In this document: piece by piece, positions 1,461 through 31,840 of the stretch | Position numbering within the stretch: the first letter of the stretch is position 1 | Layout of the letters: each line of letters begins with the position of its first letter | Assembly: GCF_021134715.1 (NCBI RefSeq) | Contig: NC_060028.1 | Coordinates: 2,006,501-2,070,500 of the forward strand | Reading direction: 5' to 3' | DNA from: Daphnia pulex | Lineage: Eukaryota > Arthropoda > Branchiopoda > Diplostraca > Daphniidae | Length of the DNA: 64,000 nucleotides | The notes under the pieces: generated by a model | Databases searched by the model: none | What the model was told of the DNA's origin: nothing | The model's input: only the letters and a program-made list of their open reading frames with translations | Position numbers and translations under genes: made by a program

Positions 1461-2822
1461 AAGACTGATCTCAATCGCAACTCATTTAGAAAGGTTCTTT
1501 GTGTAAGGCTAATGTATTCGAGTAATAAACATATTGTATTTTTTGTATAGTGTATTTATCTACCAGTAGCTACCAGTCTTTGAATACGTGTATAATTATT
1601 GTCAGACAAGTAAGTTATTAGAAATACCAAGTCGAACGTGATGGGGTCAATCAAGAACGGCAAACATTATCCATGTGATAATTAATAACATGTAAAAGCC
1701 AAAAAATTAAAAAAAATAGCATGACGTCATAATGCATAGTTAAACCTCTTAGTTAGCACTTTACTATAGCTAACAATCAATATTCAGATGGCGGTATCTA
1801 ACAAGTGGATATTTAAATTTACTATGTTGAATGATTATTATAATCATATTTTAAAAATATGGTTTTTAATAATTGTATATCTAACGCCAAATAATCTTAA
1901 TCCGTCAGCTACTTTACGAGAGAAACAGCAAGGCGGTTCTTCTTATAATGGATCACCAAGAAAACCAGCAGACTTGTCACCTTTTTTATTGGGGCTGATT
2001 GGGGTAACAAAAATGGGGTTAAATAAGTGTACCAACACGATGAAGTTTCTACTCACAATTAATTCGTCATGACCCCCTTTTGCTTAAATTTTATAATTAA
2101 GTTAATTTCCCTTTTATTTGAAAGATTGCTGATCTATTCAGACCTCCAGCAGTCCAAATTTCGCCGTTTCCTGTGGAAAATTCTTCGATCGCCTTGAAAT
2201 GAAAATGGGAGTTCAGCTTTACTACCTGACAAAAGTCGCCGAAAGTGTAACACAGTATTGCTCAATACCATACAGGTACGATCTTGATTTTTGACAGTCA
2301 CTGAAAACTATAGCAACTAAGAGACCGTTGCGAATTTTAGGACTTCTGGTTCACTTAATAGTTTGTTTCCAAAAGAAAAAGGTAAAATCAAGATAGTGTA
2401 TAGCTTCCGGGGTCGAAGTAGAACAGGTTTTGCTTGTTGCCTAGGCTGTTTTTCCTTGAACGCGGGTTTTTCATTACAATAAACAACTACTAGCCAAGAG
2501 TTCTCTTAAAAAGAACATGACAATGTCACCCATGTTGTTAAATTCACTTTCACTTTGCGTCCAAGGCATGAAAAAAAAAGGAACTAGATACCACGCCTAT
2601 AAAGTCCTTGAAATGCTGTGCATTTTAAAAAATTTGCATTGTATCTACTGATCGGTAACCATTGGCAAATAATTTATGCTTTTTCGCAATCAAAATAAAA
2701 ATTCAGTAGTGTGGGCTTTCTAAAAAATTTTTATTATTGTCACACTTCAAAATAGGATAGGAATGGAATTATGCACGAATGATAACAATCATTTACAGTA
2801 AGTAGTATGGCCATAGCTTATG
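1461..2822. other. Intergenic, no gene seen
   Basis: After the protease poly(A) signal this AT-rich stretch shows no exon with coding character. An open frame at 1788-2072 encodes 94 residues without recognisable features. TTTATT at 2730-2735 is AATAAA on the minus strand, about 90 bp past the stop of the cuticle gene, and is its likely poly(A) signal. Confidence 0.6.
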
Positions 2823-3593
2823 TTACACAGCGCGCGCAGTCTTGACCTCGTTGAAAAGCTTCATGAATTCCGCTCGAGCCATTTTCACCTCGGGTGTATC
2901 CGTCACAGACTGGGTATAATCGACACTTGGGGCTGATGTCGGAATTAAAAGAACATCACGGTCCTTAACAATTTGATAAGCTGCCAAGTGTTGGGCGCGA
3001 GCCGCAGCTACTTCGAGTGTCTCCGTTGGTGCCACATTGATGAACGACGGGGCCACAGGTAGATGGTCGGAGAAGGCACGGAAGCCTTGGTCATCAGCGA
3101 TGTAAGCGACGATAATCTTCTGCCCCTCGGGACTGATGAACGCCCAATTACCTACCTGATTTCCCCAAGCATCGCGGTAGTTGGTGGCAGCCTGACCGGG
3201 ATGAGCGTAACCGAAACTAGTCTGTCCCAATTCATCCTGCGCAATGTATTGAGTTGCGTAAGTCGCCGATTCGTCATCAATTGATGGGAAATTTTCAGGG
3301 TCCAGCATGCTGTCAGATGACGAGTCATTAGAGTCATCAAAGTGACCCGGATGACCGCCATTGTATCCGGCGGAGTGTCCCGTTACTATTACGGCGCTCC
3401 ATCCCGCATTCCACGGTGATATAAACTCAGAATTGGCGATTGAGATGTATGCCAGCAAGAGAAGAGTTGCAGCCTTAATAAGAAAAAAACAAAGGAACCA
3501 ATTTAAAATTTCGAATAAAAATTTAAAAGAGTTAATTCAAATTTCTTTCTAATTTTACGATCGTTTAGTTGGATCACTTACACAGAACTTCAT
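2823..3593 (-). CDS. Cuticle protein with chitin-binding (Rebers-Riddiford) domain
   Basis: Two exons on the minus strand: 3582-3593 (MKFC, donor GTAAGT) and 2823-3473, joined in phase 0, giving 220 residues. The tiny first exon is typical of arthropod cuticle genes. The joined N-terminus (MKFCAATLLLLAYISIANS) is a clear signal peptide that the second exon alone would lack. A Rebers-Riddiford-type core lies around residues 95-145: GNWAFISPEGQKI, then VAYIADDQGFRA, then HLPVAP. Asp stands at the usual Glu of the Y-x-A-D/E-E-x-G-Y/F motif. Such domains bind chitin in the extracellular cuticle. An acidic Asp/Ser-rich stretch (residues ~48-68) precedes the domain, and the C-terminal third is helical and charged. 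Which RR subclass it belongs to is uncertain. Confidence 0.88.
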
Positions 3594-3675
3594 GCTGATC
3601 CGCCAAGTTTTTGACCGCGTATTCCCACTTCCACTTCACAAGACAGGTTTGAAATTGAATTGTTCGCCGAAACGC

Positions 3676-3683
3676 TTTATATA
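3676..3683 (-). promoter_or_regulatory. TATA box of the cuticle protein gene
   Basis: Read on the minus strand this is TATATAAA, about 83 bp upstream of the cuticle ATG at 3593. A start near 3648 would give a 5' UTR of about 55 nt. This is inferred from position and sequence. Confidence 0.5.
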
Positions 3684-3693
3684 CTCGAATGCT

Positions 3694-5658
3694 ACCTTAA
3701 CCTTCGTACACTCCTACAGGCAGCTAGCTCACGAACGAACTATTCGTAAAACTTTTCCGTGACTCAGGTGTATGCAGCCTTCGAATTCTTTCCTAGGTGG
3801 GTGGAGTCTTGCTAATAGACGGGAGAACCCGAGTTGAAAGGAGTACGTTGATACACCGAGAAAGGTAATGTTACATGTTAATATTTAGCATTTGTTTCCA
3901 TGGCTGTAACCCTCGTTACATCAGGAATCCTGAGAAAAGGGTTGAGTCTGCTACTGCAAATTGATTATTTTAATAACACCCTCAGTAAAAGGTGTGATAT
4001 TAACCGCGAAGAAACGTCCTTAACCGCTCACTTTCACGATTTTTTGAATCCGCGGAATAACAGGAGAAGGGTCATAATTGAATGCGGAAGACTAGTTGCT
4101 TGATTGCGTCACCCAGCAAAAAGTGAAATTTCATCGAGTTAATTGTAGAACTTTTTCCCCCCTTTTTCTACGTTCAACATTACAGTAATTGCGCATAGAC
4201 ATTCAAGAAAATTAGATTTTGATTGCCTTAATTAATATTCTATTTTTACATGCAATAAAAACAAAATAATTTCTTTCTATGGTTAAAAAAACTGAAGGGT
4301 ATTTGGCATTTGTAGTATTTCTAATTGCAATAAAAAATCTAGTTTTTTTTTCTCTCAGTTTTATTATTATTGTTAGGAAATAGTAAATATGAGTCGATTG
4401 CTCTGCATTGGTGTCCTTCAAATCCCACCGCTTGCAGAAAAAAACTACACAATTTTCCTTCTCTCTTCAGATTATCTAACAATTTTTTGCTGATGTTATA
4501 CTATAATATATACTAGTGCATTTCCAGGAGGTAATTACAATTTTACTTATGGTCTTTTTTTAATCTCAGTCGTAAAAAGCGAACACATTCATGAATATAT
4601 AATCCGAAAAATTCTGTGTACCCTTCCAATGTCATATTTAAGCGCTATAAGCATTCGCGTGCACTTGCACCTTAACGTCAGATCTCACGGAAAGTAAATA
4701 GTCTAAACCCACTCTACATGTATTAGACAAGACAATAAAAAAAAACAGCCAGAAATGTACAGAAAAAAGGGTTTACCCTTGAATTCGGGTACAAAACCTG
4801 CTTGTATAATTGGATAGCTACTGTGAATGTCCTACTTTCAAGGGCGACCACTGCAACCAATAAGTTACAACAAATGAGCAAAGTCAATCGAAAGACAAGA
4901 ATGTTGGGTCAGCAGGTAACAATTAACAAAAATGGTTAATTAATTAATATGAACAATCAGCACGAATAGACATCAGCAGTTCGGAACCAATAGATGATGC
5001 CGTGAATTGATAAAGTTCAATCCACTCGTTAAGGTAATAAACCAAACATAACAACATTTTCCCATTTCTTCGTGAAATGGATGAATATTGTAAACATGAT
5101 ACCGTAATAAGTAATAAAAATTCAGATTTTTTTCATGTTATAAATAATAATGGACTGAGAAATTTCGTTCGCCCAAACTATTTTTATATTGTGACCCTGG
5201 CTCGTGTTAAATTATCGCGTCCACATGAACGAATTATCGCGTGAATTCTGTTTATTTCTTTTTTGTCAGAAATTTTGCGTTTTTTTTTTATTAAATGGAC
5301 GAATAAATAGTTAATCCGTCCTTGAGTCTGAGTGGCATTGATTAATTAAAAAATATATTTTTTTTATTATTATTTTTTGTTTAATTTGAAAGTTATTTTT
5401 TTATTCCATAAATCTAAGTTGGCAACGCCATTGATTTGAAAATTTTAAGGGGAAGTGGAAAAAGGCGAAAAGCTAAAAAGCTAAAAAGACTTGTGAAGTC
5501 GTCCGTTGCAGTTTAACTCATCATTTTAATTACATAATCCTTTTCCAGGTTTTATTGCTTGATTTACAAATCAAATGTTAAATTTCAAATGAGGTTTGTT
5601 ACTTTTTTTGGATATTCTAGATCTTTCTAAACCATATATTAAAACTTTTATCTGATTA
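3694..5658. other. Intergenic, no gene seen
   Basis: About 2 kb of AT-rich sequence between the divergent cuticle (-) and oxygenase-like (+) genes. I see poly-A/T runs and no coding exon, tRNA or repeat array. It may contain an untranslated or short first exon of the oxygenase-like gene near its right end. Confidence 0.5.
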
Positions 5659-21500: not shown

Positions 21501-23680
21501 TCGCTGATGCTGTTAAAACGTCTATAAAACAATAAAACAGTTTTGAAACACCTTCCATAAGGATTGAACGAAAAAGAAAAAAATTATAAAAGAAAAGAAA
21601 AGACACACGCGTGTTGTGCTGTTCCGATCGATTAAGTCGATGCATCAGTAAACGCGCGGAACCCAGGGACTTATAATGCTGCTGCATAAAAAAAATGGGG
21701 GGAAAAATAAAAAGAATCATCGTGAAAAGGTTCACATTTTTTAAAAGAAGAAATGATAAAAAGGAGAAGAAAGTTTCAAAAAATTCAAATAGAAACATAT
21801 GATATCAGCAGACGCGCTGTATCAGGATTTTGTTGCGTAGGCCTATACATCGGGACTATATAGAACAATGATGCGCGTTTATTATTATTCCTTCCGTGAC
21901 TGCCGCGTTTCTCGGGAATGGACAAAGGCGATGTTGTTTGTTTTCTTTTTTTTAAGCAACACGTGCGCTCATCGAGCATATATACATCAAGCATGTAAAG
22001 GAGAGCAATTCGTTTGGCATTATATTTAAAAAAATATCAAGCAGTAATATAATGTTATATAAATCATTATTTATATGGGAAAAAAAGTATATTATATTTA
22101 TTCTTCGGCCTTTAGCGGCACTTGTATTTTAAAATGTCTGCAAGACACTTATCAGCAGGCAAATATAATAATATATAGGGTCTAATATGATATCAGAAAA
22201 AACAACAATAATGAAAACAATATTCGCGAGCGACAATATATAAAAGCTCTGGCCAACTTTGGTTCAACTCCTGCTGCTGTGCGTTGTTGGCGTAGTTTTA
22301 TATCAAAGTGTAGGCTATATAGTTATATAGATAAAAAAAGACTTTGGGAAATGTTTCATTAATGAGGCGACACTATCTATCTATCCTCTATATCCTACAC
22401 AATAGTGTACAGCATATAACATGATTCCGAATGCTCTGTTTGCCACACTAACTTCATATCTTTTAAGATTGACATGGGTGGGTGAGCATGATGGGTGCGA
22501 TATATCCTAATATTGGAGCTCGTTAAACGAAGTTATCGCAATATATGTGCTGCTGCTTCTTCGATCTCAAGTTATCTTCCATTCTTTGAACACATTAATG
22601 CTGACGTTCGGCAAATATAATAGGACTATCTATAATAACTACATCGCACGGGGAGACCGGATATATTTTGTAATATTATTATAATTGGGATATAAGGTAA
22701 TATTATTATAAGAGCCACTATACCATCAATATCGAAACTTGATTTACCATTTTCGTTGACGCATATCGGCCTACATTATCGCATCAAAGGTTTTTCACCT
22801 TGTTAACAATATATATATTATTCCCAAGGTTTTATTTTCTTTCATGTATTATAGAAGTAAACTTATTTAGATGCGTCATTTTATTATTAAATATACTCTT
22901 TTATACTCCTACGTGATTTTTCAAAAATTACTGATTCCCATCGGTCTCTAATATGAAATGCTGACGAATAACCACAGAGATTGCAAAAAAAGTGTTGCAA
23001 GCACATACTATTATTATAGCCAGCAATCATCAAAAATGAAATGGACTAATGATGAGATACGAGGGCGAGTCGACTGAAGTCATATAAAGAAACATTTTAA
23101 AAAATGATGTGAAACCTCTCCGCGCGCGGTCTCTCCAGCATTGCCGCGTGTGCGGTATACATGATGTGAACTAGTTTTTACATTACGCTTATTATTATAA
23201 TATTCCAGTGGCTGTTTAAAAAATCTATTTTTCTGTATAATACACAAAAAATAGAAAAAGAGAGAAAAAGAAAAGTGTGAAAGGAAAAGACTCGTCGTTG
23301 CGACTTGCGACTATATGGAATCAGCGAAACGATATCGGCCAATAAACAGCACAGCAGCAGAGGTCAAAGGCTTTATATATATTATAGAGATGTAGGCTAC
23401 TATTGCAGCAGAGAAACGAGCGCGGGAGCGTGCTGAGTTGAGGGGTGCTGCTGCTCCTGGTCGTATATACAAACTGTATAGACACAAAGGGAAGAAGTGA
23501 TATGGTCAAAGAGAACGCAAGACTTTGGTTATACGGGAGAATATATATAAGAACAGGACGACACACACAATGGGTTCGTCCCACACACACACACACACGC
23601 ACGATATATAGGCTACATCAGCAGCAGCAGCAGCGCCCAGCATATAGGCTATAATACAAGCTATAATATAAAAGAGTCTA
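15540..23680. other. AT-rich gene-poor region with simple repeats
   Basis: The first ~400 bp is upstream DNA of the GPATCH2-like gene. From about 15.9 kb the composition changes: long TATATA runs, AATAAT runs, scattered GCTGCTG/CAGCAG, and at least six copies of TAGGCCTA (for example 16710, 17001, 20043, 20096, 20317, 21838). A (CA)n tract is at 23582-23598 and a (CAG)5 near 23620. Open frames here are short, low in complexity and lack splice support. I find no gene. Confidence 0.65.
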
Positions 23681-24153
23681 CACAGTGGCGGTATCCTACT
23701 TTCATGTAACTGCTACTCGGTACCCAGCCTACTAACAAAAAGATTGAAACTACTTCTAAATTCTTGTACCTTTTTTTTACTTGCCTTACTAATTCTATAA
23801 GACACCACTATCCGGTGAAAAGCTTACTTAAAATAAACTGAACCACTAACAATTCTTTTCTACTTTTATTACGCCCACCCTACTTAAAAATTGTTGACCC
23901 CTTAACAGACGGCATTCATTTCAGAAGTTTCTCCACACTTACCGTAAGGGAGTGGATCCTACTGAAATGGTTTGGCACCTTCGTAGCAGTAGCTACTTAC
24001 TAATTTCAAACCTACTAAAACATTTTAAACCCACTAAAATGTCGTGAACTTGCTTCTTGTTATTGTTTATTCAGGTTGTCAGCACGTATTCAAGAAAAGT
24101 TTTCTAAGTGCAAGTTTAAAACAAAAAACTGAACGACATAAACATAACAGCAC

Positions 24154-24841
24154 TTACATTCCGTCTACAAAACGGTTGTACGATTTCCAAAATTTTGCCA
24201 TAGCTTGTGGCTCTTGTTTCTTTGATCTCTTTCTAGTGGTAGCATTGGTGTCGGCAGTCAAGCAACAGCGATCGATAACATCCAGAACTCCATACATGGC
24301 GGGATATTGCATGTTGATGACATAATAAACCCCCAACAATAACAGCTTGACTTGAACATGTTGGATTGAGATTCTTTGAGCGTACCTGAAATTAGAGAAA
24401 TATAGCAGGTTAATTGAAAGACTCAATACGAGTAAATTAAAGACTTACTTTGTCAGCATTGGTGTTCACTGTCTCAGCTTGACTTGAACATGTTGGATTG
24501 AGATTCTTTGAGCGTACCTGAAATTAGAGAAATATAGCAGGTTAATTGAAAGACTCAATACGAGTAAATTAAAGACTCACTTTGTCAGCATTGGTGTTCA
24601 CTGTCTCAGCTTGACTTGAACATGTTGGATTGAGATTCTCTGAGCGTACCTGAAATGAGAAAAATACAGCAGCTTAATTGAAAGACTCACTACGAGTAAA
24701 TTAAAAACTCACACAAAGGTTTTGCAGATATCCAACTCAAAGCCTTCTGCTTCCAAAGCTTGCCTAACTTCAGAAGCACTCCACTGAGTGATGTCCATCG
24801 CATAGATGAAGAGTTTGGAACTTTTATGTGACGGAAAATTT
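24154..24841 (-). pseudogene. SAM-like exon followed by tandemly repeated small exons
   Basis: On the minus strand an exon from 24841 to 24713 or 24715 encodes a SAM-like start (MDITQWSASEVRQALEAEGF then ELDICKTF). It is followed by three 69-nt exons with normal splice sites (24581-24649, 24449-24517, and 24385 onward), separated by 63-nt introns. The 69-nt unit is open only in the frame GTA-CGC, giving 23 residues (VRSKNLNPTCSS...). The third copy runs on into a different terminal exon. If the donor GTGAGT at 24712 is used instead, the frame TAC-GCT reaches a longer end (QYPAMYGVLDVIDR...) only when the first two copies are skipped. The SAM domain is cut off after about 20 residues, so this is probably a decaying gene. 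No function can be assigned. Confidence 0.5.
24343..24713 (-). repeat. 132-bp tandem repeat made of one exon plus one intron
   Basis: About 2.8 copies with period 132 bp: the shared motif CAGCTTGACTTGAACATG starts at 24343, 24475 and 24607. Copies 1 and 2 are almost identical. Copy 3 has a few substitutions and lies next to the SAM-like exon, whose own intron has the same sequence. Each unit holds one 69-nt exon and one 63-nt intron, so duplication kept both splice sites. Confidence 0.9.
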
Positions 24842-25500
24842 CTACGAGGAAAGCAAAAGCTAAATTTAAGTAACAAGCACAGAATCAGATAAGAATGCTT
24901 ACCGAATATCGACTTGACGGCTTCTTATTTCACATTAATAAAACACTATTTCACGGTTTCACCACGAGAGAAGTGCTCTCGTGAAGTGCTAGGAGAAATG
25001 AGCGTCTTTGACACACTAAACGTTGCCGATATGTTTGAAATGTGCAAATTTTCATGACGTTGCCATGTCATGAAAATGTGAAATAACAAAATAATAAATA
25101 AAATAAAAACTCCTATTTAAGTACAAATGAACTTAATTAAAAAAGTATAAAATCACCACATTAAAATTGCACTGAGTTATTGGAGGGGCACTTACAATGA
25201 ACTCAGTTCACACTAAGGCATGTTGCCTGAGTGTGTTTGGTACAAACAATATCACTGATGTTGGCAATAACTAGTTTATGATGATCGATTGAGACTGCAT
25301 GCCTTCAACATTAGCTGGATAGCTGGCAGCATCTTTACAGCAACTAAAGGTGTTCCATCTAACAGTGGTGATATGATCTCAGTGATCTATAAAATAAACA
25401 CAAATGAACAACTGAGTAGCTATCGTGTAAATAATTTTTATACCTTGGCTTGTGTTGTTGACTAGCCAAGTCAAATCCTACCCAATAGTTGTTGTAGCTG

Positions 25501-26459
25501 CTACAAAAATGGAATGAGATACCCCTCTTTGTAGATTTCTTTCAAAAGACATTTTCCCTGGGCATCTGTAGCCCATTCAAAGGAAGGATTCCCTTCGTTA
25601 AGTATTACAGCAATAGGCATGATGGCTGGGAATGAGTTTTTCCAGATAGATTCTAGTCGATAACGTGTCAGGTCTTCCTCACCTCCCAACTTGTTGAAAA
25701 TGGTATGAAATGCAGGTGATTGAGTTGTTTCATCACTGATAAGAGGTATGAGCTGCTCCTGTAAGATGGTAGAGTACAGAAGATGAACTTGTTAATTTCA
25801 CAAACAATTATTACTGATTTTAAATAAATTACCTTTACTTGCTGTAATTTCTTGTCGTGATGTTGATGAATGGCGTCAGAAACACACAGCAGTGCCTCAA
25901 ATGGCAAATAGAACTGTTGCCTGAGTCTCAATAATGCGGCTGCTTCCCATTCAACATCAGTTACACTTGTTGGATTCCAAATTGCAGCAGCATCTGCCAT
26001 GCATTCCAAACTTGCAGAATGACGGAGAAAATTTGAACTGTCATCACTGTCTTCCAAGTCCATGTTTGTTATCGCTTCTGTGTCTTCCAAATTACTTTGC
26101 TCTGCGTCACCAGTCTGAAGTTCTGGTTCAAGAACATTGGCTGAAATAAATTTTCAAATGTGGTACAATTAACATAGAAATTTTTAGGCTGCCATTTTAG
26201 TATAAACTAATGTATGATTACCGTTATCTAACACATGGTTTTGTAGATTTAAAACACTCCCGTGTTTTTTATGCCAGTGGACCTTGAATGAATTGTACAC
26301 TAAGTAAGTCTGGTTGCAATTCGGATACTTGCACTGCACTGAAAAATTGGACGAAAAATAGTGGAATACTCAGATGTGGTGGAAAAAATTTATTGGAGTT
26401 GTCAAATCGATTAACTGGGGACACATTTGACACTTGACTGCGGTACATTTAGCAGCCAT
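25501..26459 (-). pseudogene. C2H2 finger and helical-domain gene relic inside copy 1
   Basis: Three minus-strand exons join in phase: 26222-26338 (C2H2 finger CKYPNCNQTYLVYN then FKVHWHKKH), 25833-26140 (acidic linker, then WEAAALLRLRQQFYLPFEAL) and 25501-25758 (EQLIPLISDETTQS..., stop at 25501). An ATG at 26459 starts a Cys-rich stretch (MAAKCTAVKCQMC) that meets a stop before the finger exon, so the first junction is unclear. The helical part has a close relative at 29724-30240 in copy 2. Further exon-like pieces follow downstream (YNNYWVGFDLASQQHKP near 25450-25495, and IISPLLDGTPLVAVKMLPAI near 25325-25390), but their frames do not join, which suggests decay. The layout recalls finger/SAM multicopy genes of other animals, from memory only. 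Confidence 0.5.
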
Positions 26460-27214
26460 TTTAGTCTGAACAATAGATCACTAATTGATAGTATATGAGG
26501 TTGCGCTATAGCTCACTAATAAAACAAATCAGCTCGGAGCAAAGTCATGCCACTATTCTAACTAATACTACTTATTCCTTGTAACCTACTAAACCGCAAT
26601 GATGTGAAAACATACTTACAGTTTTGTATGTGACTAACCTACAACTGATTACTTTTTTCAGTCAAACTGCTAACCCCTTTTCCTACTGAACTTTCTGAAC
26701 TAGTGATCAAAGATACTGAATTTTTCACACTACTTATAACAAAAGTACTACATTTTTAGAAACTACTAGCTATAACCTACATTGCTTTTATTATTGATTA
26801 CTTTTTAAAATCAAACTACTAACCCTACCTGAACATACTGTATTTTTCAGACTACTAACTAAATCTTTATAAACTGCTGGACCGACCTACTGAACAGAAC
26901 TATGCCTACTAACAGTTTCGCTAAGAATAACGTAAAAAGTAGGCAAATGAATGGTTAGTAGAAAAATTGAACTTAAGCAAGTACAGTAAAATACTGAATT
27001 GCGTTTCAGTACCATACTGAAGGGTACTGAAACTGTTAGGGGTGTGTAGGTACTGGAAATCGGTAAAATAAGCAGTTTAACGCGGCTGTGTAAGAATAAA
27101 AGACAGCGATTTCTTTTCTTGTCTTTTTCTTTTGTATATTATGCTCGATAGCGTTCACCGCAGCAGCAGTATCTATACACACACACTATATACACTATAT
27201 ATGCTGTCTATATA

Positions 27215-28987
27215 CAGTCGTGGCTGAAAGTTTGTATACCTTGTGCTCCAAAACCCGCCTTTTTACTCTGTATTGGCGGATAGTTTTAGCCTATCGCAAA
27301 GAAAAGGGGGTGTTATTTGTTCAAATTTTTCTTTTATTACCCAAACCCCTCTACCCATTTTTACTTATCCCTTCCTGTTAGCATCCATTACTATTTTACC
27401 GCAATGCTGAAAATGGTTAAGCAACCTTTTTTAACTTAAATGGCAATCAGGTCACCATTCATCAGTCTAAACTGGGAAGTATCGACATGAATAATAACGG
27501 CATTCAGACCCCGCGCTTGAGTGAAGCTGAGAAAGGAATGATAATCGGATATCATTTAAGTGGCCACACCGTTCGCGAAATTTCTCAAATTCTTCGTCGG
27601 ACAAAAGCAACCGTTTACAAGTGGATTACTAGATTTAGAAATGAGGGAAATGCTGGCTTTAAAGTGAGGAATCGTAGTGGAAGACCACGTGAAACTGACG
27701 AAGCCTGTGACCAGAGGATTGTTGCGGCTGGTAACGGAGCCACATTTTTTTATTTTGTTTGTTCGCTCGATTTGAATTTTTCTTTTTATTAGCTATCATA
27801 AGTCCCTTTGACACGTCGGAAGAGATAAGAGAGACGGCGGAAGCATTTAATATCTCCAACCGTACCGTGAGAAGCCGCTTATTAGAGGCCGGCCTTCATG
27901 CGAGAACTCCAAGTGTCAAAAACTTTTTGAAGGAAACGCATCGAGCAAATCGCATAAAATTTGCAAGAGAACACATTCATTATAACTTGGATTTTTGGCG
28001 TAAAGTAATTTGGTCCGACGAAAAAACGTTCGTGTCTTCCGGCCGCCCCCCGCAATACGTCAGAAGGATGGATGGAACTCGGAATGATTCCGCGAATCTT
28101 GCGCGCAACCTCTGGTCAACCAGAAAATCGGTGAATGTATGGGGCTGTGTAACGTACGACGGCCCAGGAGTGCTGCATAGGATTGAAGGTAAACTGGAAA
28201 GTAGGCAATATCTTGAAATACTAAAAACAAAAATGCGGCCGTTCGCCGTCCAAAAGTTTCCGCTTCCAGCCGTAGCCGACGATGTTAATGAATTCCGCTT
28301 TTTCCAGCATGATGGGTAATAAGGAAAGGGTTAAAAAGGAACAAATAATGATAAAACTAATACAAAATAATTTTTTTTTTAGTTGTCCCAGTCACAAAGC
28401 AAGGATAGTTCAAGACTGGCTAAGAGGAGAGGCTCTAGAGGAGCATCGCATCAAGACTCTTTGGTGGCCGGCGTACAGCCCAGATTTAAATCCTATCGAA
28501 AACTTCTGGGGCTTTATGGTTCGCAATATGGGCCAGATGGAAGTCAACAATGCTGAAGACGTGTATGATTGGATTTTTCAATTTTGGGAAGTAATGGAAA
28601 ACAATCAAGCTTATTGGCAAAGTTTGATTGAATCAATGCCAACCAGATTAGCTAGAGTTCTTGAGTTAAATGGCGACATGACTGAATATTGAATAAATTC
28701 AATGACAAACGAATGCATAGGCTACCTTGAAATTTCTTTATTTTGTATGGGGAATTGTACGTAAAGAATGATTAAGGTTGCTTAACCATTTTCAGCATTG
28801 CGGTAAAATAGTAATGGATGCTAACAGGAAGGGATAAGTAAAAATGGGTAGAGGGGTTTGGGTAATAAAAGAAAAATTTGAACAAATAACACCCCCTTTT
28901 CTTTGCGATAGGCTAAAACTATCCGCCAATACAGAGTAAAAAGGCGGGTTTTGGAGCACAAGGTATACAAACTTTCAGCCACGACTG
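27215..28987 (+). mobile_element. Complete Tc1/mariner-superfamily transposon
   Basis: 1773 bp, flanked by the TA target duplication (27213-27214 and 28988-28989). Terminal inverted repeats of 214 bp (27215-27428 and 28774-28987) begin CAGTCGTGGCTGAAAGTTTG, a Tc1-like terminus, and I saw no mismatch between the arms. The interior encodes one transposase on the plus strand with no disabling mutation. Identical long arms and an intact gene point to recent insertion. Confidence 0.95.
27487..28692 (+). CDS. Tc1-like DDE transposase with two introns
   Basis: Exons 27487-27730, 27793-28315 and 28383-28692 join in frame to 358 residues. The 62- and 67-nt introns are GT-AG. The N-terminal half holds two helix-turn-helix segments (LSEAEKGMIIGYHLSGHTVR then ISNRTVRSRLLEAGL) with GRPRE between them, as in Tc1 proteins that bind the inverted repeats. 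The catalytic triad is VIWSDEKTF, then FFQHDG|CPSH, then SPDLNPIENFW. Between the second Asp and the Glu I count 39 residues, five more than the usual 34 of Tc1. The extra residues fall in the WLRGEALEEHRIK loop. The second intron lies one residue after the second catalytic Asp. The enzyme would cut and paste the element at TA sites in the nucleus. Confidence 0.93.
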
Positions 28988-28989
28988 TA

Positions 28990-29338
28990 TGTAGGTGGTG
29001 CTGCTGTATTTGTCGTCGCAATCTGCTGCTCCTGTGTTTGAATAGACAGCAACCGCGAAAGCATCGATGCGTTATGTGACGACTGCTATATAGCTGCGCT
29101 GCTGTGCCGTGCCGAAAGAATAAACAGCAGCAGCACACGGCGCTCTATTCTTTCTCGAACTGCTGCTGTGAGCCGAGAGCTGATGTTGGCAAACAATTTC
29201 TCTTTGCTGCTGGTTATATAGGCTAGATATACGTAGATAGATGTATATATTTCCCCTTTTTTTCATTCGTGTTTTTATTTTCCATTCGTTTATAGATGTA
29301 CAAAACATCGGGAGCAGCAGCTCTGATGCCACCGCGAG
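28990..29338. other. Short AT- and CTG-rich spacer between two transposons
   Basis: The sequence matches the surrounding AT/CTG-rich background (GTGCTGCTG, TATATAGG, CAGCAGCAG). No gene or terminal repeat is seen. Confidence 0.5.
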
Positions 29339-29512
29339 TGCACAGCAGCGGTAGAATACTTACCTTAACATACTTTAGTGGGCCAGGATTACTTACAAGA
29401 CGAAACTACTTACGAGCTTAACATACTTAAATAGTTTTTTCAAACTTACATTTTGTAAGTAACGAGTAAGCATGTAAGTATGTGCCTCCAACATACTTGA
29501 ATAAAAGAAAAG

Positions 29513-29579
29513 CCTTCTGTAGGAATCGAACACGGGTCTCTCGCATCACAGTCAGATGCTGATCCGCTGTGCCATTCTT
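29513..29579 (-). pseudogene. tRNA-like relic
   Basis: The minus strand shows an A-box-like TGGCACAGCGGAT, a perfectly paired 5-bp stem GCATC/GATGC, and a B box GTTCGATTCC at tRNA-like spacing, followed by TTTTCTTTT. The T stem and acceptor stem do not pair, so it is not a working tRNA. It may derive from a tRNA gene or a SINE head. Confidence 0.35.
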
Positions 29580-29723
29580 GATATGATTTAACTAATTAAA
29601 TAACCGTTATGAATCAACGGGGGGGTTTAGGACTTAGAGATTTTTATGTCCAAACATTATATTCAATTTTCTCTCCTAAAGCGGCGAGCATGTGCCCTTA
29701 TTCATTTTTTTCACAAAAATGAT

Positions 29724-30240
29724 TTACAGGAAAGCTGCTTTAAACTCGGTACTAATACCAGTTCCTTCAGTAGATATAAATAGGGCAGCAAATTTTTCCT
29801 ACAATTAATGAAAAAAAGGAGTTATATTCCTTAAACAAGTGGTTTACATGTATTCTAGAGTTCTACCTGAACGATGGCCATATTTCTTGAATAATGCTCA
29901 TGGATGGACTGAGAAACAAAGAGCAGGGCCTCGTAGGTCAGGAAATATCTTTGTCGCAACATAAGTAGCAAGCCAGCCTCCCATTCAAATTCACTAAACG
30001 CAGCACCATGAGTGAAAAGGAGGGATTCAATTTCACGATGAGCAGCAGGAACCAAATTTTGCTGGCCAAAATGTTGGGGTTGTTGTTCGTGATCAAAATC
30101 ATGCCTATCTTCAGCTGATGATTGTTCAAGACCAGCCCTGACGCCATCAGTTGTGTTACTACTAGCAATAACAACATCTTCAATGGACGTGGGATCACTA
30201 GCCTCGTCGACTAACAAGTTGAATCCAGTAGTCGATATAT
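29724..30240 (-). pseudogene. Remnant of the copy-1 gene family inside copy 2
   Basis: Two minus-strand exons, about 30240-29867 and 29798-29724, join in phase 0 with GT-AG sites. The first ends in WEAGLLLMLRQRYFLTYEAL followed by LFVSQSIHEHY, closely paralleling WEAAALLRLRQQFYLPFEAL then LCVSDAIHQHH in copy 1. The second (EKFAALFISTEGTG then ISTEFKAAFL) parallels EQLIPLISDETTQS then PAFHTIF and stops at 29724. The finger and SAM-like exons are absent. The 5' limit is not clear. It is evidently an internal-deletion derivative. Confidence 0.55.
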
Positions 30241-30604
30241 ATAGGCTAAGCTCAATCAAATTTCAAAAGTGAGCAAAAGTACAAGTACAAAGTACAAGTA
30301 TGTTATTAGCTGTTTAAGTATGTATACGACGAAAATAAGTATGAAAAATAGGTATAAGTATGTTCGTCCAATATACTTACAAATTTACAATACTTACAAA
30401 TAGTTGAACATACTTACAACTCCCTAAACTACTTGATATTTAAAACAGATAGTGCTTGCAAGTATGAAAATGAGTTGTAAGTACGTTAAAAAATATTTCA
30501 AGTAGGAAATTTTCCAAATTAAGTATGAAAAAAGCCCTACTTGACAAATTCAGTACTTTTAACCTACTAACATACTGGAAATTAAGTATGTTACCGCTGC
30601 TGTG

Positions 30605-31840
30605 TGATAGTCGTTTGTTTCTATTTATCCGGCGGCTGCTGTGCTGCTGGATGCGCGGCTATTATTTAGCCTATATATATATACTGTCAATAGTATAATG
30701 CAGTGCATCCAACGACGGTAGCCTAATTGGGGAAGACGGCTATATAGTGAATGGCGGATATATACCTAATACCTAGCCTATATATAAAAGAAAAGAATTA
30801 AGTATATATACAGTATGTAGCATTGTAGCTATACTATAAGGAAAATGTGATAGGCTACTGTTTAATAAGCTTATAAACAATCAACTTTTATTGCATTTCG
30901 AAAGAAACTGATCACGTAGGCCTATGTATACAGAATATTAGATATCTAGTAGGTATATTATAGTCCGCTGTACATGCTGTAGGCCTACATGCTGTACTTT
31001 TCTATGTATGCGGTTCCTGGAAATAAAAACAGCTGGCTTCTAGCTGTTGAGCATCACAGCAGACTGATGCGTCACGTTAAAGGAGGATTTGTTGCGCTGT
31101 ATATAATATGTACAGTATATATATTCTCCGTCTTGTATTTTATACATGCTATCCTTATATAGCCTACACATCTCAAGTAGGCTATTTGCGTTGGCCATAT
31201 TGTTGAGGCGGCTGCCGTGATGTTATACTCGCAACATCTATAGCGCGAGGAATTCTATATAGGCATATATATTCTATCAATTTATTTCTATATACAGCAG
31301 CAAAAATGAAAGCCGGTTAGTTGAGCATAGATATAATAGTCACTATAATATTGGAGCATGCTGGATATATAATTTAGGATATGCTTTCCTTTTCCACTTG
31401 TTGAGAAATGTTGCTCGTCGTTTTACCATCGTGCTGGATATTATATAATACATATTATATCGAGTATATATAGGTAGAAGTCGAAATGGCTCGACAGTAT
31501 CTTAGATTAGTTGAAGAATTGAAAAGGAGAAGAAGCTCAATTTATTAGATCGTCTTGAGATTTTTCATTAGGCCTATGTGCTGTGTAATAGTTTTCTTCG
31601 GAACAAGCAATTCTTCGGATATATACCTCTATAGTATTCATATAGCAGCTTCAAGATTTTCTTGAAAAGTTGAATATATGACGCGCTCTAATATGTTCAA
31701 GTTTCGGCATATTTTGACAGATGCCAGCAGAGGAATAATATTATTTAGATTATTCATTTGTGGAATCCCAGCACTCGTCTCCTTCTTCCCTGGAAATAAA
31801 GCAAAGATGCATAATAATATTAAAGATATATATAAAAGGG
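30605..31840. other. AT-rich spacer with TAGGCCTA palindromes
   Basis: TATATA-rich, with CTGCTG triplets and TAGGCCTA at 30917, 30980 and 31569. No coding exon is seen. The composition switches to GC-richer retrotransposon sequence at about 31.84 kb. Confidence 0.5.

Follow-up and report, generated by a model that had tools for sequence, protein, structure and literature searches.

Two very probably core-deleted CACTA-type transposons with a 2-bp target duplication in Daphnia pulex

Plant En/Spm transposons encode a tnp2-type enzyme, carry subterminal short repeats and give rise to deletion derivatives that are moved in trans. Here we describe two elements, A and B, in a 64,000-nucleotide stretch of the Daphnia pulex genome (contig NC_060028.1, positions 2,006,501 to 2,070,500, hereafter the window; C12:2006501-2070500 in our searches). 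They are very probably core-deleted, non-autonomous CACTA/EnSpm transposons of the CMC group, belonging to an animal branch with a 2-bp target duplication. They differ from plant En/Spm, which has CACTA ends, 3-bp duplications and a separate TNPA-like protein; no protein of the latter kind was identified here.

SmTRC1, one of the animal "Transposons Related to CACTA" (TRC; DeMarco et al. 2006, PMC1636069), resembles A and B, as far as the available part of that paper goes, in having animal hosts, copies truncated internally and empty sites that reveal a 2-bp duplication, and also in the Transposase_21 domain, which here occurs in relatives of A and B. Its ends begin with CCC and form a 54-bp inverted repeat in Schistosoma, whereas A and B have CACAG and about eight further bases, followed by subterminal repeats; the CCC end core of animal TRC elements is not present in the A and B copies. 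The same part of the paper gives the duplication for 7 of 14 copies, compared with 35 of 37 here. A second reference point is the "CMCT" clade (EnSpm/CACTA, ESTA and Plavaka), for which the accessible text of PMC12730594 lists duplications of 2-5 bp, ends that in most cases are CA..TG, not CACTA, and, in the interval from the second D to E, the motifs C(2)C and H(3-4)H. A and B are alike in their CA..TG ends and short duplication, and their relatives in D, D and E residues with C(2)C and H(3-4)H.

In D. pulex itself, the available portion of Schaack et al. 2010 (PMC2884549) names ten CACTA families that have markers of coding capacity (CactaA1.1 to A10.1), along with CACTANA1.1; they belong to the same superfamily as A and B, and the comparison is by name, not by sequence. 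The family of A and B was originally predicted to be undescribed. This is tenable at the level of the family alone, since the kind is known from animal CACTA-related elements (PMC1636069) and the D. pulex CACTA families (PMC2884549). A and B are thus most likely a new family, or subfamilies, of known CACTA kind, and one of the names CactaA1.1-A10.1 or CACTANA1.1 may already cover A or B. No description of CACAG-ended elements of the A and B kind was recognised among titles and abstract starts, which is weak evidence because most subscription journals were not covered.

Termini, copies and target duplications

The two insertions and their borders are as follows.

23681..27090, unstranded: element A, a 3410-bp, probably non-autonomous CACTA-type transposon, full insertion (ends, TA/TA duplication and 21 further two-ended genome copies)
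23679..23680, unstranded: left target duplication TA of A (flank comparison)
27091..27092, unstranded: right target duplication TA of A (flank comparison)
23681..23693, plus strand: left terminal inverted repeat core of A, CACAGTGGCGGTA (pattern search)
27078..27090, minus strand: right terminal inverted repeat core of A, CACAGCCGCGTTA (pattern search)
29341..30604, unstranded: element B, a 1264-bp, probably non-autonomous relative of A, full insertion (15 copies)
29339..29340, unstranded: left target duplication TG of B (flank comparison)
30605..30606, unstranded: right target duplication TG of B (flank comparison)
29341..29353, plus strand: left terminal inverted repeat core of B, CACAGCAGCGGTA (pattern search)
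30592..30604, minus strand: right terminal inverted repeat core of B, CACAGCAGCGGTA (pattern search)

The 13-base end pattern, with up to two mismatches, matched the window 23 times, compared with a mean of 8.9 and a maximum of 18 in shuffled sequence; by itself it is poor evidence, and it is the genome copies that decide whether the elements are real. The source genome (133 Mb, 13 contigs) was searched with A and B, loci were fetched with their flanks, and both ends were located by similarity before the flanks were compared. At least 22 A-type copies (797-3500 bp) and at least 15 B-type copies (1255-1288 bp) had two ends, giving 37, including A and B of the window; these numbers are lower bounds. 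All 74 ends of the 37 copies start with CA, and 73 with CACAG, the exception being CATAG at one end of L040; the copies therefore have the CA..TG termini of CACTA/EnSpm elements. Note that loci with one recognisable end (L019-L022, L064, L065) or none (L044-L049, L066, L067) were left out of the count, and that L002-L016 are the same loci refetched with different flanks. L042 and L043 have both ends, of the form CACAGCAGCGGC, with TG and CG duplications, respectively, and were held apart as a third subfamily. Three adjacent loci at C3:1831-1871 kb (L018, L019 and L020) have A-type left ends and near-identical left flanks; they are probably one insertion duplicated locally, and L018 alone was counted.

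An exact 2-bp duplication flanked 35 of the 37 copies, and none had 3 bp or more, in line with the short target duplications of the CMC group. As controls, flank pairs drawn from different copies agreed in 355 of 1332 cases, and pairs moved outward by 1-5 bases agreed in 3, 1, 2, 0 and 4 of 37. The 35 duplications were TG (12), TA (11), CA (9), AG, AA and TT (1 each), so that TA, TG and CA make up 32 of them, compared with 21% of window dinucleotides. In addition, the flanks of 14 of 39 copies (the 37 plus L042 and L043) were joined with a single dinucleotide and searched against the genome. Empty sites, that is, uninterrupted matches over the junction with a single dinucleotide, were found for seven of these 14, with best identities of 96-100% in five: L054 (AA, best 99%), L055 (AG, 99-100%), L026 (CA, 97%), L017 (TG, 96%) and L030 (TG, 96%). 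L033 (CA) matched at 94%, and L061 (TG) gave a weak match of 83% with an indel. In L059, a B copy is nested within another B copy, with a CA duplication.

These results bear out much of the original prediction, which had proposed a multi-copy terminal-inverted-repeat family on the strength of four CACAG-type termini at 23681, 27090, 29341 and 30604, a TA flank on either side of A and a TG flank on either side of B. All four termini were located there, the 37 two-ended copies establish the family, and the 2-bp duplication proposed for both elements recurs across it; empty sites showing that duplication, named beforehand as a check, exist for half of the copies searched. The locus thus offers a well-replicated animal case of the CACTA type, in which 37 copies define the ends, the length of the duplication and the target preference, with empty sites for 7 of 14.

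Subterminal arrays of short repeats, a mark of plant CACTA elements, are present in A as CTACT and in B as TACTT. CTACT occurs 10 and 8 times at the two ends of A (shuffle means, 1.9 and 2.6) and TACTT 8 and 18 times at the two ends of B (shuffle means, 1.7 and 3.6), counts that none of 200 shuffles reached in any of the four cases. The predicted "TACTT-like" repeats accordingly hold for both ends of B and the left end of A, but not for the right end of A, where TACTT is not enriched (68 of 200 shuffles) and CTACT, enriched at both A ends, stands instead; ACTTA is not enriched at either A end (62 and 182 of 200 shuffles). The transposase may bind these repeats. The largest array is the following.

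30205..30604, unstranded: right subterminal TACTT/AAGTA array of B (18 TACTT, shuffle mean 3.6; a number attained in none of 200 shuffles)

Gene pieces and the transposase core of relatives

The interiors of A and B contain the following coding pieces and repeat; E denotes the expectation value of a match, and L-numbers denote loci elsewhere in the genome.

26256..26441, minus strand: N-terminal coding piece resembling a zinc finger and containing an in-frame stop (39% to the L069 finger region over 64 amino acids, E 2e-11)
25821..26036, minus strand: helical coding piece, VEWEAAALLRLRQQFYLPFEALL (query 1-72 at G000:C12:2032321-2032536; weaker relatives in L068 and L069)
25483..25758, minus strand: third coding piece, ending IPFL*QLQQLL at the putative deletion junction (38% to an L069 exon, E 4e-19)
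24709..24831, minus strand: possible SAM-domain start, MDITQWSASEVRQALEAEGF (SAM_3, E 0.13, not significant)
24157..24330, minus strand: C-terminal or second-gene coding piece (32% to L070:5747-6166, E 1e-10)
24343..24712, unstranded: 132-bp tandem repeat in A, 2.8 copies, 96% matches (repeat scan)
29864..30001, minus strand: remnant of the helical coding piece in B, 46 amino acids (52% to L069, E 9e-12; 46% to A over 46 amino acids, E 3e-11)

As predicted, the minus-strand pieces of A and B are paralogous, and B is the reduced relative, its gene cut down to the 46-amino-acid helical remnant, the only gene part that it retains. Pfam gave no match at useful score for A's own coding pieces. In a genome-wide search, however, they matched L068 (52%, E 2e-19) and L069 (39%, E 5e-14), and in both loci a transposase core lies downstream of the matching exons on the same strand. 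A single frame of L070 (2914-3339) contains both the exon that matches and the first of the core motifs. The L069 core matched PF02992, Transposase_21, at E 7e-6, followed by L071 (E 0.002) and L070 (E 0.03), and L072 touched PF13960/DUF4218 weakly (E 0.03); the L068 core matches that of L069 (55%, E 8e-30). With the L069 core as query, 38 stretches of the genome matched at E <= 0.01, several of them from a single locus. Against sequences of solved structures, it gave a chance-level match alone (E 1.3).

Five loci were scanned for the core motifs. L069, L070 and L071 each have NP with the first D, CxxC after the second D and an HxxxH that precedes E; L072 has the latter two of these motifs, and none of them was found in L068. 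The sequence around E in L069 differs from that of the other loci. L069, L070, L071 and L072 thus have, from the second D to E, the C(2)C and H(3-4)H motifs of the CMC group. The Transposase_21 core therefore resides in relatives of A and B, and A and B themselves are without it.

The third piece of A reads in frame ...IPFL*QLQQLLGRI*, and homology, as judged by eye, ends after QLQQLL near 25483. The corresponding residues are VPFLPQLQQLF in L068 and IPFLESVQQFL in L069, both of which run into the catalytic core. Since A's reading stops where the core of L068 and L069 begins, the core is missing from A, and its loss by deletion would be the simplest explanation. L017, the other large copy with this gene, aligns with A across the break; it also matches the 132-bp repeat stretch of A repeatedly. 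The sequence SSYNNYWVGFDLA after A's stop was considered as a downstream transposase piece and rejected, as tblastn gave no support and the in-frame reading is IPFL*QLQQLL.

Taken together, the comparisons indicate that the internal gene of A is what is left of a Transposase_21 (tnp2) enzyme whose core is gone. Several parts of the original prediction give way here: "no known transposase domain" does not describe the family, whose paralogs carry the Transposase_21 core; the gene of A is not near-complete; A, without the catalytic core, is no autonomous-type element; and its protein, rather than unfamiliar or captured, appears to be the tnp2 remnant. Because the same exons lead into the core in the paralogs, and core-bearing loci have matching ends, we regard A as a core-deleted derivative and B as a shorter one. 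A may also have encoded a SAM domain, to judge from the possible start in A and from L071, a relative in which SAM_1 (E 7e-6) occurs in a separate frame after the tnp2 core.

In L071, at 1832-5584, an 831-amino-acid tnp2-type open frame begins finger-like and includes the core; it is followed by the SAM frame and a further frame. The 831-amino-acid frame had no relative among viral contigs. Separately, 783-amino-acid frames at G000:C7:6379177 and G000:C8:6104333 score above the PF02992 cut-off and probably represent another CACTA-type family of the genome.

Proposed assignment to CACTA and its alternatives

Ends and enzyme are brought together by three loci, L069, L070 and L072, in which a matching CACAG-GCGG end lies beside the core. 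In L069, CACAGCGGCGGAAGAGTACTT, flanked by TA, stands about 500 bp before the gene. L070 and L072 are 92% alike over 3.35 kb and have a common CACAGCGGCGG end after the genes, with differing flanks beyond it. Furthermore, B 30478-30551 matches the subterminal region of the transposase-bearing L069 (76% over 74 bp, E 7e-9) at the equivalent end of the gene.

A number of observations weigh against the assignment to CACTA/EnSpm. A second end was searched for in L069, L070 and L072 and not found, leaving one end each; L071 had no CACAG end within the 7 kb fetched, and upstream the similarity of L070 and L072 breaks off without a CACAG end at the break. Because an intact core between two CACAG ends was not found at any locus, we infer the autonomous element rather than observe it. 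The PF02992 scores of L069 (25.9 bits), L071 (17.7) and L070 (14.0) are below the Pfam cut-off of 28.6, and the L068 core frame has no Pfam match. Two copies, L029 (CA/TG) and L060 (CA/TA), have mismatched flank pairs, the nested insertion in L059 has 4 extra bases to the right of the duplication compared with intact copies, and no empty site was found for the other seven of the 14 copies among the 40 of 71 candidates scored, so that a missing match is not proof of absence. Finally, the literal end sequence is CACAG instead of CACTA, and target sites are duplicated over 2 bp (mainly TA, TG or CA), compared with 3 bp in the fungal EnSpm families and TA in ESTA, as given in the available text of PMC12730594.

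We consider it extremely unlikely that A and B form a separate, unknown superfamily in which the finger/helical/SAM-like protein is the transposase and a tnp2 core was never present. The CACAG ends and the absence of a Pfam family at useful score from A's own pieces would suit such a superfamily, but in L068 and L069 the same exons precede a core, which matches Transposase_21 in L069; A's reading stops at the start of the relatives' core; and the ends at core-bearing loci are of the same type. Nor do the data favour A and B having captured host-gene fragments, with a mobilising transposase unrelated to that gene. Such a capture could draw on L071, which is core-bearing, has its 831-amino-acid frame intact and no recognisable ends, and is possibly a domesticated transposase, and also on the relative of A's 24157-24330 piece, L070:5747-6166, which lies on the strand opposite the L070 transposase gene and outside the region common to L070 and L072. 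It is nevertheless very unlikely, given that the gene family consists of tnp2 transposases and is represented by 38 matching stretches, that element ends adjoin the gene in L069, L070 and L072, and that the subterminal sequence common to B and L069 is oriented alike with respect to the gene.

Membership in another group with 2-bp duplications, either Mirage within CMC or ISL2EU/PHIS, instead of the EnSpm/TRC branch appears quite improbable. Mirage also makes a 2-bp duplication. The same holds for PHIS, according to the part of PMC12730594 available. However, Transposase_21, the CxxC and HxxxH motifs and the CA..TG ends fit CMC as a whole, and no PHIS-type transposase was among the Pfam matches. 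ISL2EU, Kolobok and KDZ, which had been suggested as possible homes, were likewise absent from the Pfam matches of A's pieces and paralogs, a comparison confined to Pfam; the transposase-linked families were PF02992 and, weakly, PF13960. Kolobok duplicates TTAA, which was not seen among the 37 copies. It is conceivable, though rather unlikely, that the CACAG elements, with a transposase of finger, tnp2 core and SAM domain, are a distinct animal CMC lineage apart from EnSpm, TRC, Mirage and Chapaev, one that has its own insertion rule, a 2-bp stagger at flexible pyrimidine-purine steps, and is still mobilised in D. pulex.

If A and B are core-deleted CACTA/EnSpm elements, the parental element would have encoded a multi-exon transposase with an N-terminal zinc finger, a helical segment, a tnp2-type DDE core and probably a SAM domain. 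An internal deletion would have taken the catalytic core out of A, a larger reduction would have led to B, and further shortening to copies of about 800-990 bp resembling miniature inverted-repeat transposable elements. Transposase from another copy could then bind the CACAG ends and adjoining short repeats, excise the element and join it to breaks staggered by 2 bp, mostly at pyrimidine-purine steps (TA, TG, CA). The cut-and-paste chemistry and the identity of the last active enzyme are presumed from sequence. A path is thereby visible from core-bearing relatives through a core-less element to short derivatives.

Copy age and neighbouring sequences

The 15 B copies are 97.9-99.9% identical in pairwise comparison. 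A-type identity was compared for 18 of the 22 copies by length group, and was 99.8-100% at 853 bp (n=4), 99.1% at 821 bp (n=2), 97.7-99.5% at 797-799 bp (n=7) and 90.9-98.9% at 913-993 bp (n=5). These values would indicate recent bursts of core-less copies and, therefore, movement in trans; A and B were probably moved by the enzyme of a relative. The near-identity of the copies makes the family suited to trans-mobilisation tests in mutation-accumulation lines. In Daphnia magna lines, CMC-EnSpm is listed as active, with one loss and no gain, in the portion of PMC8594854 available.

Within B, the stretch at about 29492-29591 looks tRNA-derived by its appearance. ARAGORN found no tRNA in A or B, this stretch included, and Rfam returned nothing in 23600-30700. 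The same stretch (29492-29591) recurs alone at 13 other places in the genome as short matches of 79-88%. Between A and B, the window contains another element at 27208-28994 with perfect (100%) 221-bp terminal inverted repeats, whose frames, apparently intron-split, resemble those of a Tc1/mariner transposase (WSDEKTF, WWPAYSPDLNPIENFW).

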